From: Acidobacteriota bacterium
Lineage (GTDB): Bacteria; Acidobacteriota; Terriglobia; Terriglobales; Acidobacteriaceae
Length of the DNA: 34,180 bases
Assembly (NCBI GenBank): GCA_003224855.1
Contig: QHZY01000076.1
Span: forward strand, 1 to 34,180
Reading direction: 5' to 3'
Below, piece by piece: positions 3,622 through 14,623 of this stretch (position 1 is its first letter; each line of letters begins with the position of its first letter). Under the pieces are notes generated by a model that saw nothing but the letters and a program-made list of their open reading frames with translations, was not told where the DNA came from and made no database searches. The position numbers and the translations under genes are program-made.

Positions 3622-5145
3622 ATGGCGAGTGAGCTTTATAACATCATTGACGCGGTGAGCCGCGAAAAGGGAATCGATCCGCAGATCGTGGTCAGTGCGG
3701 TGGAAGACGCCATTGTTGTCGCCACCCGCAAATATTACAAGACGCAGGAGAACCTTCGGGCTGAGCTTGACAAGGAAACAGGGAAGATCAGTGCCTTCGC
3801 CGTTAAGTCTGTGGTCGAAAGCCCAGAGCAGGTGGAAGATCCGCAGCTGCAGGTGACGGTTGAGGACGCGCGCAAGATGGATCCCAACGTTGAGGTGGGC
3901 GGAGAGCTGCGCATTCCCAAAGTCACGGAAGGAATTCTGGGGCGGATCGCGGCCCAACTTGCCAAACAAGTGATTTTTCAAAAAGTTCGGGAAGCCGAGC
4001 GCGACACGGTTTACAACGAGTACATCGGCCGTGTGGGTGAGATCGTAAATGCCAGCGTGAAGCGCATCGAGGGTCCGGACGTGATCTTCGATATCGGCAA
4101 GGCGGAGGCCCGCATGCCGCGCAAGGAATCGTCGCGCTTGGAATCGTTCGCGATGAACGAGCGGGTACGCGTGATCATCGCCCGGGTGGAAAAGGCCGCG
4201 AAGGGACCAGCCGTAGTTGTATCCCGGGCTGCGCCAGACCTGGTCCAGCATTTGTTCCAGACTGAAGTGCCTGAAATCTATGACGGCACGGTGGTGATTC
4301 GCGCCATCGCGCGTGAGGCCGGCGAGCGCACCAAAATTGCGGTCATGTCGAAAGACAAAGATGTTGACGCGGTGGGCGCGTGCGTAGGCATGAAGGGAAT
4401 GCGGGTGCAGTCGATCATTCGCGAATTACGTGGAGAAAAGATCGACATCATCGAATATCACGAAGACGCTGTGACCTTCGCTGAAAAGGCTCTACAGCCG
4501 GCCAAGGTGAGCCGGGTCACTGTGCTCGATTCGGCCGACAAGCACCTGGAAGTAGTGGTGGATGACAGCCAGCTTTCCCTCGCCATCGGGAAAAAGGGGC
4601 AGAACGTCCGGCTGGCCGCAAAGCTGCTTGGCTGGAAGATCGACATCAAGAGTGAAGAAGAGAAGCGCCAGGAAGTCGAGCAGCAGATGTCGGCGCTGGT
4701 CGGTTCCACTGCAACGCCGCTTGAAAGTGTCACCGGGCTGGGCGAAGGCCTGATTGAGAAGCTGATCGCTGCCGGCGTTACAACTGTGGAAGCCCTGGCG
4801 GATATGACACCGGAACAACTGGAAGCGATTGAAGGAATCGGCCCGAAGACGGTGGAAAAAATCAGCCTGGCAGTCAATAATTACTTTTCAGCCCTTGAAG
4901 GCGGTGAGGCAGCGGCTGCCGCCGAGGAACCACCGGCTGAGAGCACACCTGAGGGCGGCATTTCTGCCGAGCCCGAGGCCAACGTTGCGGCCGGGCAGGG
5001 TGAAGGCGAAGTTTTAACGGTTGAAGCTGAACCAGCCGCACAAGAATCTGCTGAAGCTGTAACCAGTGAAGCGGAGACAATCGCAGAAGATGAGAGTCCG
5101 TCTGAAGCAGACACAGAGAAGACCGGTTCTGAGCAGAGTGAGTAA
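3622..5145 (+). CDS. nusA: Transcription termination/antitermination factor NusA
   Basis: NusA binds RNA polymerase and nascent RNA and modulates pausing, termination and antitermination. The 507-residue protein shows the N-terminal polymerase-binding domain (residues ~1-125, starting MASELYNIIDAVSREKGID), an S1 domain (~135-200), and two KH domains with VGACVGMKGMRVQSI (~255) and SLAIGKKGQNVRLAAKLLGW (~315-335). Helix-hairpin-helix repeats follow (LEAIEGIGPKTVEKI, ~395-410). The last ~90 residues are a Glu/Ala-rich acidic tail of low complexity, longer than in many relatives and probably disordered. It sits between rimP and infB, presumably in one operon. If the rimP leader hairpin works as a terminator, NusA could influence its own expression, which is inference. 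Confidence 0.95.
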   Translation: MASELYNIIDAVSREKGIDPQIVVSAVEDAIVVATRKYYKTQENLRAELDKETGKISAFAVKSVVESPEQVEDPQLQVTVEDARKMDPNVEVGGELRIPKVTEGILGRIAAQLAKQVIFQKVREAERDTVYNEYIGRVGEIVNASVKRIEGPDVIFDIGKAEARMPRKESSRLESFAMNERVRVIIARVEKAAKGPAVVVSRAAPDLVQHLFQTEVPEIYDGTVVIRAIAREAGERTKIAVMSKDKDVDAVGACVGMKGMRVQSIIRELRGEKIDIIEYHEDAVTFAEKALQPAKVSRVTVLDSADKHLEVVVDDSQLSLAIGKKGQNVRLAAKLLGWKIDIKSEEEKRQEVEQQMSALVGSTATPLESVTGLGEGLIEKLIAAGVTTVEALADMTPEQLEAIEGIGPKTVEKISLAVNNYFSALEGGEAAAAAEEPPAESTPEGGISAEPEANVAAGQGEGEVLTVEAEPAAQESAEAVTSEAETIAEDESPSEADTEKTGSEQSE

Positions 5146-5235
5146 GTCAGGCGATGTATAAGCTTGTAACAGCAACTGACACCGTGAGGTTGATATGAAG
5201 ACTTAGCGGGGCAGGTGGAGGCACCAGAAGCACGG

Positions 5236-7359
5236 ATGAGCAAAATTCGAATTAACGATCTCGCCAGAGAATTGGAAGTTAAAAGCAAGGCAATACTCGA
5301 TGTATTGTCCGAAGTTGGCGTTACTGAGAAGAAAACCCATTCCAGTTCCCTTGAGGATTTCGAAGCCGAAAAAGTGCGCGCGCATTTTCATGCCAGCCAG
5401 CCCGCCTCAGCTGCTGCGCAACGCCAGTCTCGCTCCGAGCCGGGAGAGATCAAGACAAAGATCGATCTCTCGCACATTTCCAAACCCGGCGATGTCCTGA
5501 AGGCGATCATCAATAAGCAGCAGCCAGCTGCACCTGCAGCTCCACCTCCTCCCACACCGCCCGTGGTGACGGCAGCACCCACGCCGAGGCCGGGATCGGT
5601 GAAGCCAGCCGCTCCGGTTACGCCATCACCGGCCGTAACTGCGAAGCCGGTTGCGCCCGCTGCTCCGACAGTCGCGCCTCCAGCAGCTCCTCGCCTGATC
5701 GTTCCCAATACCGGGCCGCGGCCCAGCTTTAGTGTGCCGCCGCCACCGGCTCCGCCAACACCGGCTGCGCCCGTACGTCCGGCAGCAACTCAGCCTGCAG
5801 CTCCGGTCGCTTCGGCTTCGCCGGTCGTTCCACCTCGACCCGCGACTCCGCAGCCGCAGATGCCGATTGCGCCGCGTCCCAATGTGCCGGCTCAACCGCA
5901 CACCCCAGCACCTCGGGTGATCGTTCCACAAACCGGCCCTCGTCCGGTATACAAGGCGCCGGTGCAACCGCAAGCCTCGTCAGGATCGGCGGCGCGCCCA
6001 ATGCCTGGCCGTCCGGTGCCAGGACAGCCAATATTTCAACGTCCGCGGCCCAGCACGCCTTCTTCACGTCCGCCTCTTCGTCCGGGAGAAAGACGCCCGA
6101 TGCATCCCACGCGGCAGACGCCCGGTGGGCCTCGACCGCTCGGTGTAGGGCCATCGCTACCTCCACCCGGTCCCACACGCCCGGGTAGCCGCCCGGGAGG
6201 GCCGTCACGTCGTCCCGGCCAACGTTACATTCCGCGCGGCATAAAAGAAGGCCCGATGAAGGGCTATGTTCCGCCGCCACGACTGACGGTCTCCAACGAG
6301 CCGTTGCCGATAACGCGGAACATCACGATTACAGAAGGCATCAGCGTTAAAGATCTGGCGGAAAAACTGGACATCCGCGCTAAGGATTTAATCGCGCGCC
6401 TGCTGGGGCGCGGCGTGTTTGCAACTATCAACCAGACGCTTGATGCTGAACTTGCCACTGACATGGCGCGATTTTTCGGCGCTGATACCAATGTCATATC
6501 CTTCGAAGAACAAGCCCAGAAGGAAATCGCCGAATCCAGTGCGGGCGAAGACGGGGCCGCGGTTGAGGGCATTGCGCGTCCTCCGGTGGTAACCATCATG
6601 GGCCACGTCGATCACGGCAAGACAACACTGCTTGACTCGATTCGCCTGACCAACGTAGCCGGGGGCGAGGCTGGAGGTATCACTCAGCATATTGGCGCCT
6701 ATAAAGTGTCGATTCAAGACAAGGAGTCGCCGGCGTTCGGCCGTAAAATTGTTTTCCTGGATACCCCCGGTCACGAAGCGTTTACCCGCATGCGTGCCCG
6801 TGGCGCCAAGGCAACGGACATTGTTGTGCTGGTGGTGGCAGCCGATGACGGAGTAATGCCGCAAACGCTTGAGGCTATCGATCACGCGCACGCCGCCGAA
6901 GTTCCGATCATTGTTGCGGTCAACAAGATCGACAAACCAGATGCGCTGCCTGATCGCGTGAAGAAGCAACTGGCGGATCGCGGACTGATGCCGGAAGACT
7001 GGGGAGGCACCACAGTTTTCGTGGACGTTTCCGCAAAGCAGAAAACCAATCTCAACCTGCTGTTGGAAATGGTCTGCCTGGTGGCAGATCTGCAGGAACT
7101 GAGGGCTACTCCCGATCGCCCCGCGACCGGCGTTGTGCTGGAAGCCAAACTCGACAGAGGACGCGGTCCGGTCGCGACCGTCCTGGTACAGAACGGAACT
7201 CTGCGGGCCGGTGACAACTTTGTTGTAGGTAACGTTTACGGCAGATCAAGAGTGCGGGAACGAAAGAGCTTAACATCATTCTCAAGGGCGACGTGCAGGG
7301 CTCAGTCGAGGTCATCAGCGATCTGTTGCCCAAGCTCTCAAACGATCGCGTCCGCCTGA
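5236..7359 (+). CDS. infB: Translation initiation factor IF-2, N-terminal part (reading frame broken at about 7242)
   Basis: IF-2 is the GTPase that places initiator tRNA on the 30S subunit. From ATG 5236 ([15 protein letters not shown]) the protein has an IF2N domain (~1-50), a long Pro/Ala/Arg-rich linker (~65-345), a second IF2N-like segment (~360-410) and the G domain with G1 [13 protein letters not shown] (~453), DTPGHEAF and VNKID. A GTG at 5215 is an alternative start. Domain II begins normally, but after NVYGR (Gly669) the text jumps to what should be the end of a later linker ([11 protein letters not shown]), which is now in another frame. The frame given here therefore runs on in nonsense to a stop at 7359. 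About 72 residues present in other IF-2 proteins are missing. See the C-terminal entry and the findings. Confidence 0.9.
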
Positions 7360-13383: not shown

Positions 13384-13906
13384 TGCGGCCTCGTGTCAGA
13401 CAGTAGCCCGTCAATGGGGTAACAAAAGCAGTCAGCCGTCATCCCACACCCCCACTGCCATCGTCCGCGCAAAAAATATCACTGTCACGGGCGCACTGGG
13501 AGGATCGCTAAACGAAAGGACGAACTATCTCCTGTTTCTGCAACCCATTCCGATTCGGGAGGGGAGACGTTAAATCAGCCTGAGAAATTGTCGCCAATGA
13601 CTGCCGGCCAGATGGGTTGGTGACGGATATCCAATCACCGGTGGCCGCGCGTGGCTGTGCACCCGGCACCGCGTCTGTCAGGGTTGCGATAGCGCGGCCT
13701 TCATCCGTACTCGGGCATGGTCCGTTGTTTAGCACTTCTACCTTAGGCGGGACACGGTGACTGGCTACGTCCTGCGCTGCAGTAGAGTTTGGAGCCCGGG
13801 GCGCGGGCGCCGGTGGGTTGCAGAGAAAGTCCGCGGAGCGATTCGTGACGAAGCTGCGTGATTCCTGGTGATTCTGAACTGAGGCGCGCACGAGCGCGCC
13901 TTTTTC
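13384..13906. other. Intergenic region with an orphan plus-strand terminator
   Basis: The PAS/receiver gene starts leftward at 13383 and the repeat-protein frame opens rightward at 13907. Between them I see no frame with family resemblance. A minus-strand frame (13508-13891) would have to start with GTG inside the terminator stem and is compositionally odd. The terminator at 13883-13905 points rightward but has no recognised gene before it, so an unrecognised short transcript or a lost gene is possible. Confidence 0.5.
13883..13905 (+). terminator. Rho-independent terminator (orphan)
   Basis: The perfect 7-bp stem GGCGCGC/GCGCGCC closes a 4-nt loop (ACGA) and is followed by TTTTT. Only the plus strand has the U-tract, so the transcript it ends must come from 13384-13882, where no gene is recognised. 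Confidence 0.85.
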
Positions 13907-14623
13907 ATGAGCTGTGCTACATTAAGCCTAGCCGTGCCGGACAGTCCTGAGATCAACCTGCTTTTGCCAGAGGGCACTACTCGTCCTCTCTGGAAGAGGC
14001 TGGCGTTTAATCTTAAAGAGTCGCTGTTTCCGGAAAAACTCCCGCCCCTTCAAATCACCTCTCGCCCGGTTGCGGTAGGAATGCTGCTTGGGGATTACGT
14101 GAGCCTGCCCTGGTACCGCACCGTATTCACCAACCTGGGCAACGTGATCAATCCGGAGAACCTGCCGGCTTTGGAGTTGCAGTCTCGCCCGGTGGATGTC
14201 GGCGAACTGATTGGTGATCAACTGAGCCACGGATGGTGGAGTTCTCTGCTTCGCAACCTCGCCGACCGCGTATCACCCGAGCGCATGCCCGCTCTAGAAG
14301 TCAGCGCTGCTCCAGCCGATGCTGCGCTTTATTCCGCAGATATGCAGATCATGCGCTGGTCGTCGTTGATTGCCTTGCCCAAATCGGCTGCGGCGCGCCC
14401 AGCCGTAATTCTGCCGGTGCGGCATTCGCCTGCGGTTCGGGTTGCGCCCCAGTTTGCCATGGGCGGAAACACGGAGTTCGGTTCGACCAGCACTCCGGCC
14501 TCCCAGGAGCATGGGAAATTGAAAACCAAAATTTCTCGCTCACGGGTGCGTGAAACTGTTTTCATCGCAGTGGCAGTGGTCGAGGGTATTTATCTTGTCG
14601 GCTCGATGTTCGGGCTGCTTTAA
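13907..14623 (+). CDS. Three-repeat protein with C-terminal membrane anchor, function unknown
   Basis: The protein has 238 residues (229 if it starts at the in-frame GTG 13934, which is plausible because the ATG at 13907 abuts a terminator T-tract and has no ribosome-binding site). Three tandem units of about 40 residues are visible: ~27-66, ~68-107 and ~109-148. Each has an aromatic W/Y cluster, a xxNLxxxxxPExLPxL core and, in the first two, SRPVxVGxLxGD. The third unit is degenerate after the core (VSAAPADAA). A Pro/Ala-rich linker follows (~150-210), then a basic stretch and one hydrophobic helice at the very C-terminus (VFIAVAVVEGIYLVGSMFGLL, ~218-238). The unit resembles the short 'xLPPLxLTSKPVPV' segment I associate with the N-termini of acidobacterial TonB-type proteins; this is recollection, not a search. 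lpxD follows 47 nt downstream. Confidence 0.7.
   Translation: MSCATLSLAVPDSPEINLLLPEGTTRPLWKRLAFNLKESLFPEKLPPLQITSRPVAVGMLLGDYVSLPWYRTVFTNLGNVINPENLPALELQSRPVDVGELIGDQLSHGWWSSLLRNLADRVSPERMPALEVSAAPADAALYSADMQIMRWSSLIALPKSAAARPAVILPVRHSPAVRVAPQFAMGGNTEFGSTSTPASQEHGKLKTKISRSRVRETVFIAVAVVEGIYLVGSMFGLL

Follow-up and report, generated by a model that had tools for sequence, protein, structure and literature searches.

A headless TonB-derived protein of Acidobacteriaceae carries three copies of a unit found on orphan TonBs

Introduction

TonB domains, as described in PMC12204202, consist of a membrane helix, a periplasm-spanning linker and a C-terminal domain, and TonB binds its motor via a Ser-His-Leu-Ser (SHLS) motif in the membrane helix. 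The same source (PMC12204202) describes vWA-family TonB-like force transducers, which have the TonB architecture with TonB_C replaced by another C-terminal domain. No description of a cytoplasmic TonB repeat or of an armless TonB in acidobacteria was found among titles and abstract beginnings of the open-licence literature searched.

The window analysed here is a stretch of 34,180 nucleotides from an Acidobacteriota bacterium of the family Acidobacteriaceae (GenBank assembly GCA_003224855.1, contig QHZY01000076.1). A sequence-only reading of it had drawn attention to a tandem repeat in an anchored protein, referred to below as the window protein, which is compared here with its headless homologues and with the TonB proteins that carry the same unit.

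Results

Gene and protein layout

The gene and its parts are listed in Table 1. Translated from the called ATG, the open reading frame encodes 238 residues, specified by nucleotides 13907-14620. The protein gave zero matches in Pfam, NCBIfam, solved structures (PDB) and plasmids. Its AlphaFold model is weak (mean pLDDT 58, pTM 0.22), with short helices at residues 28-40, 99-107 and 110-122, a long helix at residues 199-234 and low confidence elsewhere. A Pro-rich linker and a single terminal helix follow the repeat units, as had been claimed from the sequence.

At 13883-13905, directly before the called ATG, a perfect G+C hairpin of 7 bp with five T after it was seen by eye; a separate scan did not list it. 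The hairpin and T-run suggest an upstream terminator, with the GTG at 13934 as the real start, which fits the N-termini of the homologues and avoids the hairpin and T-run.

Table 1. Features of the headless TonB-like gene in the window
Feature	Coordinates	Strand	Remarks
Headless TonB-like gene	13907..14623	+	Homologues L003-L023; alternative start at in-frame GTG 13934
Unit 1 (residues 27-66, 40 aa)	13985..14104	+	First of the three tandem units
Unit 2 (residues 67-108, 42 aa)	14105..14230	+	Most conserved unit; orthologue mean identity 80%
Unit 3 (residues 109-149, 41 aa)	14231..14353	+	Profile match 14231-14350; diverges after the core family-wide
Shortened unit 4, RWSSLIALPK (residues 150-159)	14354..14383	+	W-S-x-L..PK in 34/34 distinct headless frames
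Pro-rich, fast-evolving linker (residues 160-203)	14384..14515	+	dN/dS 0.19-1.57 where defined; AlphaFold confidence low
Basic pre-membrane stretch (residues 204-216)	14516..14554	+	Positive-inside signal; charge at least +2 in 34/34
C-terminal membrane helix (residues 217-238)	14555..14620	+	Glu226 present, SxxxH absent

The repeat units

The proposed tandem repeat is real: the best ungapped internal pair of 40-mers scored 103 with BLOSUM62, a value reached by none of 2000 whole-protein shuffles of the window protein (maximum 50, mean 16.7). Over 40 positions, units 1 and 2 are identical at 18, units 1 and 3 at 10 and units 2 and 3 at 12. All three lie N-terminal of the helix and are of the unit type carried by TonBs of this class (W-x-SL-x2-NL-x-D-x3-PExLPPLxLTSxPV), and with the shortened fourth unit they bear out the view that the element has been multiplied in this protein. 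The NLx5PExLPxL core, ascribed earlier to all three, is present in units 1 and 2 and altered in unit 3 (NLADRVSPERMPAL, with M for L), while SRPVxVGxLxGD occurs twice, as stated. Of 13 homologues measured, 12 had a unit spacing of 40/42/41 and one (L012) had 40/42/43.

The suggestion that the third unit had decayed after its core was not upheld. The PVxVGxLxGD tail is missing from unit 3 in all 34 distinct orthologues, while 66 of the 68 first and second units of headless frames show a loose form of it, so that the missing tail is a trait of the family. Pairwise dN/dS in nine pairs, where defined (NG86 dS being saturated in many pairs), was 0.00-0.21 for the units, unit 3 included, and 0.19-1.57 for the linker. 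Given purifying selection on all units, unit 3 is divergent but constrained rather than decayed.

The unit in TonB proteins

A search of the window protein's own genome with the bare protein, made before any profile existed, returned one other match, a TonB on contig C72 (53% identity to window-protein residues 12-64, E 2.6e-10), which carries one unit just ahead of its membrane helix and a TonB_C domain (E 1.7e-20). A unit profile (A1) was then assembled from 24 hand-picked rows, comprising all three units of L001, L003, L005, L006 and L010, units 1 and 3 of L011, L013, L015 and L022, and the own-genome TonB unit; other units were omitted, and the E-values of member rows are partly fixed by construction. 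When A1 was run against 396 Acidobacteriota genomes (completeness at least 80%, 18 first-look candidates scored per genome), 48 matched at E 0.001 or better, 47 of them in the class of the window's genome; the 48th, outside that class, contributed a 43-aa frame only. The range proposed earlier, Acidobacteriota, is thus narrowed, within this phylum sample, to one class. Beyond Acidobacteriota, coverage was that of a close-relative scan over GTDB species and plasmids.

TonB_C (PF03544) was detected at E 0.01 or better in 48 of 48 distinct non-headless unit-bearing frames scanned, a set that leaves out matches without a locus and L091-L111. The profile search therefore found homologues beyond the window protein, and the proposed tie to the N-termini of acidobacterial TonBs was borne out; as to the fusion partners proposed, TonB_C was universal among these 48, and a fusion to a kinase or another domain was found in none. 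Single copies are present as proposed, and TonBs with two to four copies occur as well: of 67 distinct non-headless frames scored at a cut-off of 14 bits, 38 carried one unit, 19 two, nine three and one four (lower bounds, one frame, the second of L098, being cut by the locus end). A median of 10 residues separates the last unit from the helix window in TonBs. Among 31 genomes searched, all seven with a headless or fused protein contain in addition a unit-bearing frame of 342-362 aa.

Several TonB frames depart from the common form. The single four-unit frame (L040:925-2760, +; 612 aa) has similar spacers in its last three units, a sign that its array may have been amplified separately and at a later time. 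Pairs of adjacent unit-bearing TonB frames were found in two genomes (L050 and L052) that belong to a different family of the order. One unit-bearing frame (L199, E 6.9e-4) has no Pfam match and so no TonB_C; it was considered as a non-TonB fusion of the unit and rejected, being one of a second family of TonB-like proteins, divergent and about 550-625 aa long (L199:578-2428, -; L203, L210, L213, L214, L215 and L216). These proteins show a divergent unit-like segment before the helix (E 4e-7 in L213 and 3.5e-6 in L199, below significance in the rest). TonB_C is present in L213-L216; L199, L203 and L210 have no Pfam match and share a different C-terminal region (about 120 aa), to which shorter frames standing on their own are also similar. 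An 'INLLLP' start, which we took to resemble the PilN motif that binds PilM, was not kept in the other TonBs compared, and the PilN-like reading was dropped.

Which TonBs carry the unit

Twelve genomes with a headless or fused protein contained 6-31 TonB_C matches and 2-7 MotA_ExbB matches each, TonB_C being the more numerous in 12 of 12 even with MotA- and TolQ-type proteins included in the MotA_ExbB counts. The unit was absent from all eight exbB-adjacent TonB frames checked (those of G004, G011 and G015, also adjacent, lay outside this check), adjacency being judged from TonB_C and MotA_ExbB coordinates; the check listed 38 frames, seven of them second listings. The TonB next to exbB is another paralogue, in most cases about 255 aa long, with an MFEDSLIESG-type start, and the unit-bearing TonBs are mainly orphans.

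In a survey of 18 unit-bearing TonB frames from 17 genomes (L181 and L197 gave no row), 16 had an ileS cluster, identified from one member as ileS, no more than three mechanical reading frames away, and all 16 were divergently oriented. The two exceptions were L183, whose genome has a further, ileS-linked copy, and L198, a frame from another family of the class. Thirteen of the 16 linked frames carry one unit and three carry two, so unit copy number changes at a stable locus. Among L179-L198, a further cluster of 11 loci beside ileS includes signal peptidase II (one member checked).

Membrane helix and topology

The helix was scored for the Ser-x3-His part of SHLS, and in the relaxed form [STA]xxxH this was present in the first helix half of 0/34 headless versus 57/67 other frames (SxxxH proper in 35/67 of the latter), L067 and L068 being excluded from the 57 for a spurious match at the helix end. 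Ten of the 67 non-headless unit-bearing frames thus also have no [STA]xxxH, two of them (L050, L091) with a Glu near that place, so loss of the His is in itself no mark of a non-transducer. A mid-helix Glu or Gln was present in all 34 headless frames (27 Glu), and E, Q, D, K or R occurred there in four of the 67 others.

No Pfam TonB family was detected in 25 headless proteins, one of which had an unrelated chance-level match (E 0.27). All 34 distinct headless frames carry three units and have at most three residues after the scored helix window, that is, no periplasm-spanning linker, and in each the 15 residues before the helix window have a net charge of at least +2. This basic stretch predicts a cytoplasmic N-terminus and hence cytoplasmic units, as in the TonBs. 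A single C-terminal helix, positive charge ahead of it and almost nothing after it are the sequence marks of a tail anchor, and the window protein is probably a tail-anchored inner-membrane protein with its N-terminus in the cytoplasm.

Distribution and genomic context

A genome scan for close relatives gave 35 pattern matches, of which 21 were confirmed as related loci, all in acidobacterial metagenome-assembled genomes. Among 398 genomes of the window genome's family, 59 (26 of 79 genera) matched the headless family at E 1e-40 or better, and in a class-wide sample 33 of 399 matched at E 1e-12 or better; by frame length eight of these 33 are headless, one is fused and the others measure 361-612 aa. 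Absences are weaker than presences here, as such searches score only part of the first-look candidates (seven per genome in these two samples); one genome (G013), for example, gave four matches in the 31-genome search and three in that of 396.

The family sample held 60 places in all. One contains an in-frame TGA (G860, contig C86) and another (G964) covers only model positions 52-227, while the remaining 58 are free of in-frame stops and span positions 10-222 or more. G860 has two copies of the headless gene, on contigs C86 and C61, with the TGA in the matched stretch of one; after this TGA, a 221-aa frame (L130) still carries three units and a helix. One of the 60 places, in G004, is a 544-aa frame that matches the frame of L022 and is the only long frame of this type among them. 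In the L022 frame (4920-6551, +) itself, the triple unit is joined to a long arm rich in Pro and to a domain that matches TonB_C weakly (5.3e-05, just under the Pfam cut-off). With a TonB-type domain attached and SxxxH retained, this protein is an exception to the headless state of the family.

The headless genes have no neighbour in common throughout the family. A downstream lpxD is common only to the window and L003, L004 and L005, and as an operon partner it was rejected for this confinement. In a clade of six (L011, L014 and L017-L020), a conserved frame, which in L017 encodes 308 aa with no Pfam match, ends about 19 bp before the headless gene and could be a clade-specific partner. Among 20 neighbouring frames scanned with Pfam at 12 of the 21 loci there was no ExbB; one was a TonB-dependent receptor (L012), others belonged to unrelated families (STAS, MscS-type channel, ferritin, gamma-glutamyltranspeptidase and others), and five had no match.

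Evolution of the units

Units of the headless proteins sorted by position in a tree of 192 units: first, second and third units fell into separate groups (35/35/35; support 0.30, 1.0 and 0.91, respectively), each including the matching unit of L022. This clustering by position points to one old triplication that would have been followed by divergence and specialisation by position. Mean identity among orthologues was 65% for unit 1 and 54% for unit 3, unit 2 being the most conserved (Table 1). The fused L022 was placed within the unrooted headless tree, and a single truncation and a later fusion therefore both fit.

Discussion

The window protein is TonB-derived. It is not to be called a TonB, because it fails to show three defining features, namely TonB_C, SxxxH and the periplasmic arm, and with neither an arm nor the motor-contact His it should not transduce energy. 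The reading we prefer, with a confidence somewhat short of even, is that it serves as a non-transducing, tail-anchored docking scaffold or titrator that shares the cytoplasmic partner of the orphan TonBs. Each unit, with its short W-rich helix and the extended PExLPPLxLTSxPV stretch after it, would dock onto this partner, and the triple array would gather or titrate the candidate partner at the membrane by avidity, without transducing energy; this would then determine the amount of it available to the orphan TonBs. A shared partner is suggested by the co-occurrence, in seven of seven genomes, of the headless or fused protein with a unit-bearing frame of 342-362 aa. Conservation is much stronger in unit 2 than in units 1 and 3, so the units may have different binding targets instead of a single partner bound three times.

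The units might instead be amphipathic helices lying in the plane of the inner leaflet, where they would space or orient membrane proteins without a specific protein partner. Such helices would suit the W-rich units, which are mildly amphipathic (mean z 0.8-2.0 over permuted sequences, for 57 of 87 TonB units and 33 of 34 first units), the basic pre-membrane stretch and the closeness of the units to the membrane helix in TonBs. However, the positions conserved in most unit groups are to a large part polar or in the extended part (N9, D/E12 and S26, with P16, L22 and P28), and the invariant residues of unit 2 in 25 aligned sequences (R71, T72, E84, S93, E100 and D104) exceed what lipid contact needs, which makes this arrangement improbable in our view. 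The conserved polar positions N9, D/E12 and S26 suggest a protein partner over loose membrane contact, and on alignments and the weak structural model taken together we favour the unit as a putative protein-docking element with helical and extended parts.

Activity could also reside in the membrane helix. The protein would then assist a Ton-type motor, or some other polytopic complex, as an accessory subunit, and the units would serve only to localise it. The invariable Glu or Gln, near the place of the TonB His and rarely matched by a charged or polar residue in other frames, is what speaks for this; yet the helix is otherwise variable and has no SxxxH, and ExbB was not seen among the neighbouring frames scanned, so that we regard such a role as unlikely. 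That the protein is what remains of a TonB after loss of the arm, with no present function, would account for the missing TonB_C and SxxxH, the patchy occurrence in 59 of 398 genomes, the TGA on contig C86 of G860 and the partial place in G964. It is very hard to reconcile with the low dN/dS of the units, where defined, in nine pairs, with the spacing kept in 12 of 13 homologues and with 58 further places that have no in-frame stop, the interrupted copy itself retaining three units and the helix, and we consider it highly improbable.

A broader scheme can be drawn, in which these acidobacteria sort their TonBs, which outnumber the MotA_ExbB matches in each of the 12 genomes, by a cytoplasmic docking tag and a headless TonB with the tag tripled regulates which TonB gets the shared partner or motor; this scheme we hold to be doubtful. 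The presence of a conserved cytoplasmic element, multiplied in TonBs and carried as well by an armless relative dedicated to it, points to control of the Ton system from the cytoplasmic side, and the unit offers a concrete bait for a candidate partner in bacteria whose genomes hold 6-31 TonB_C matches each.

Among known systems, the headless protein is closest to the orphan TonBs of the class (PF03544), with which it shares a cytoplasmic unit followed by a single membrane helix and, in the case of the own-genome TonB, 53% identity. It differs from them in its three and a part units, where they usually have one or two, in the C-terminal position of the helix, and in having no periplasmic linker, no TonB_C (0/25) and no [STA]xxxH (0/34). 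The exbB-adjacent TonB belongs to the same TonB family but does not carry the unit (8/8 checked). The vWA-type transducers (PMC12204202) keep a periplasmic arm and in many cases an SHLS helix, whereas the window protein has neither arm nor SxxxH.
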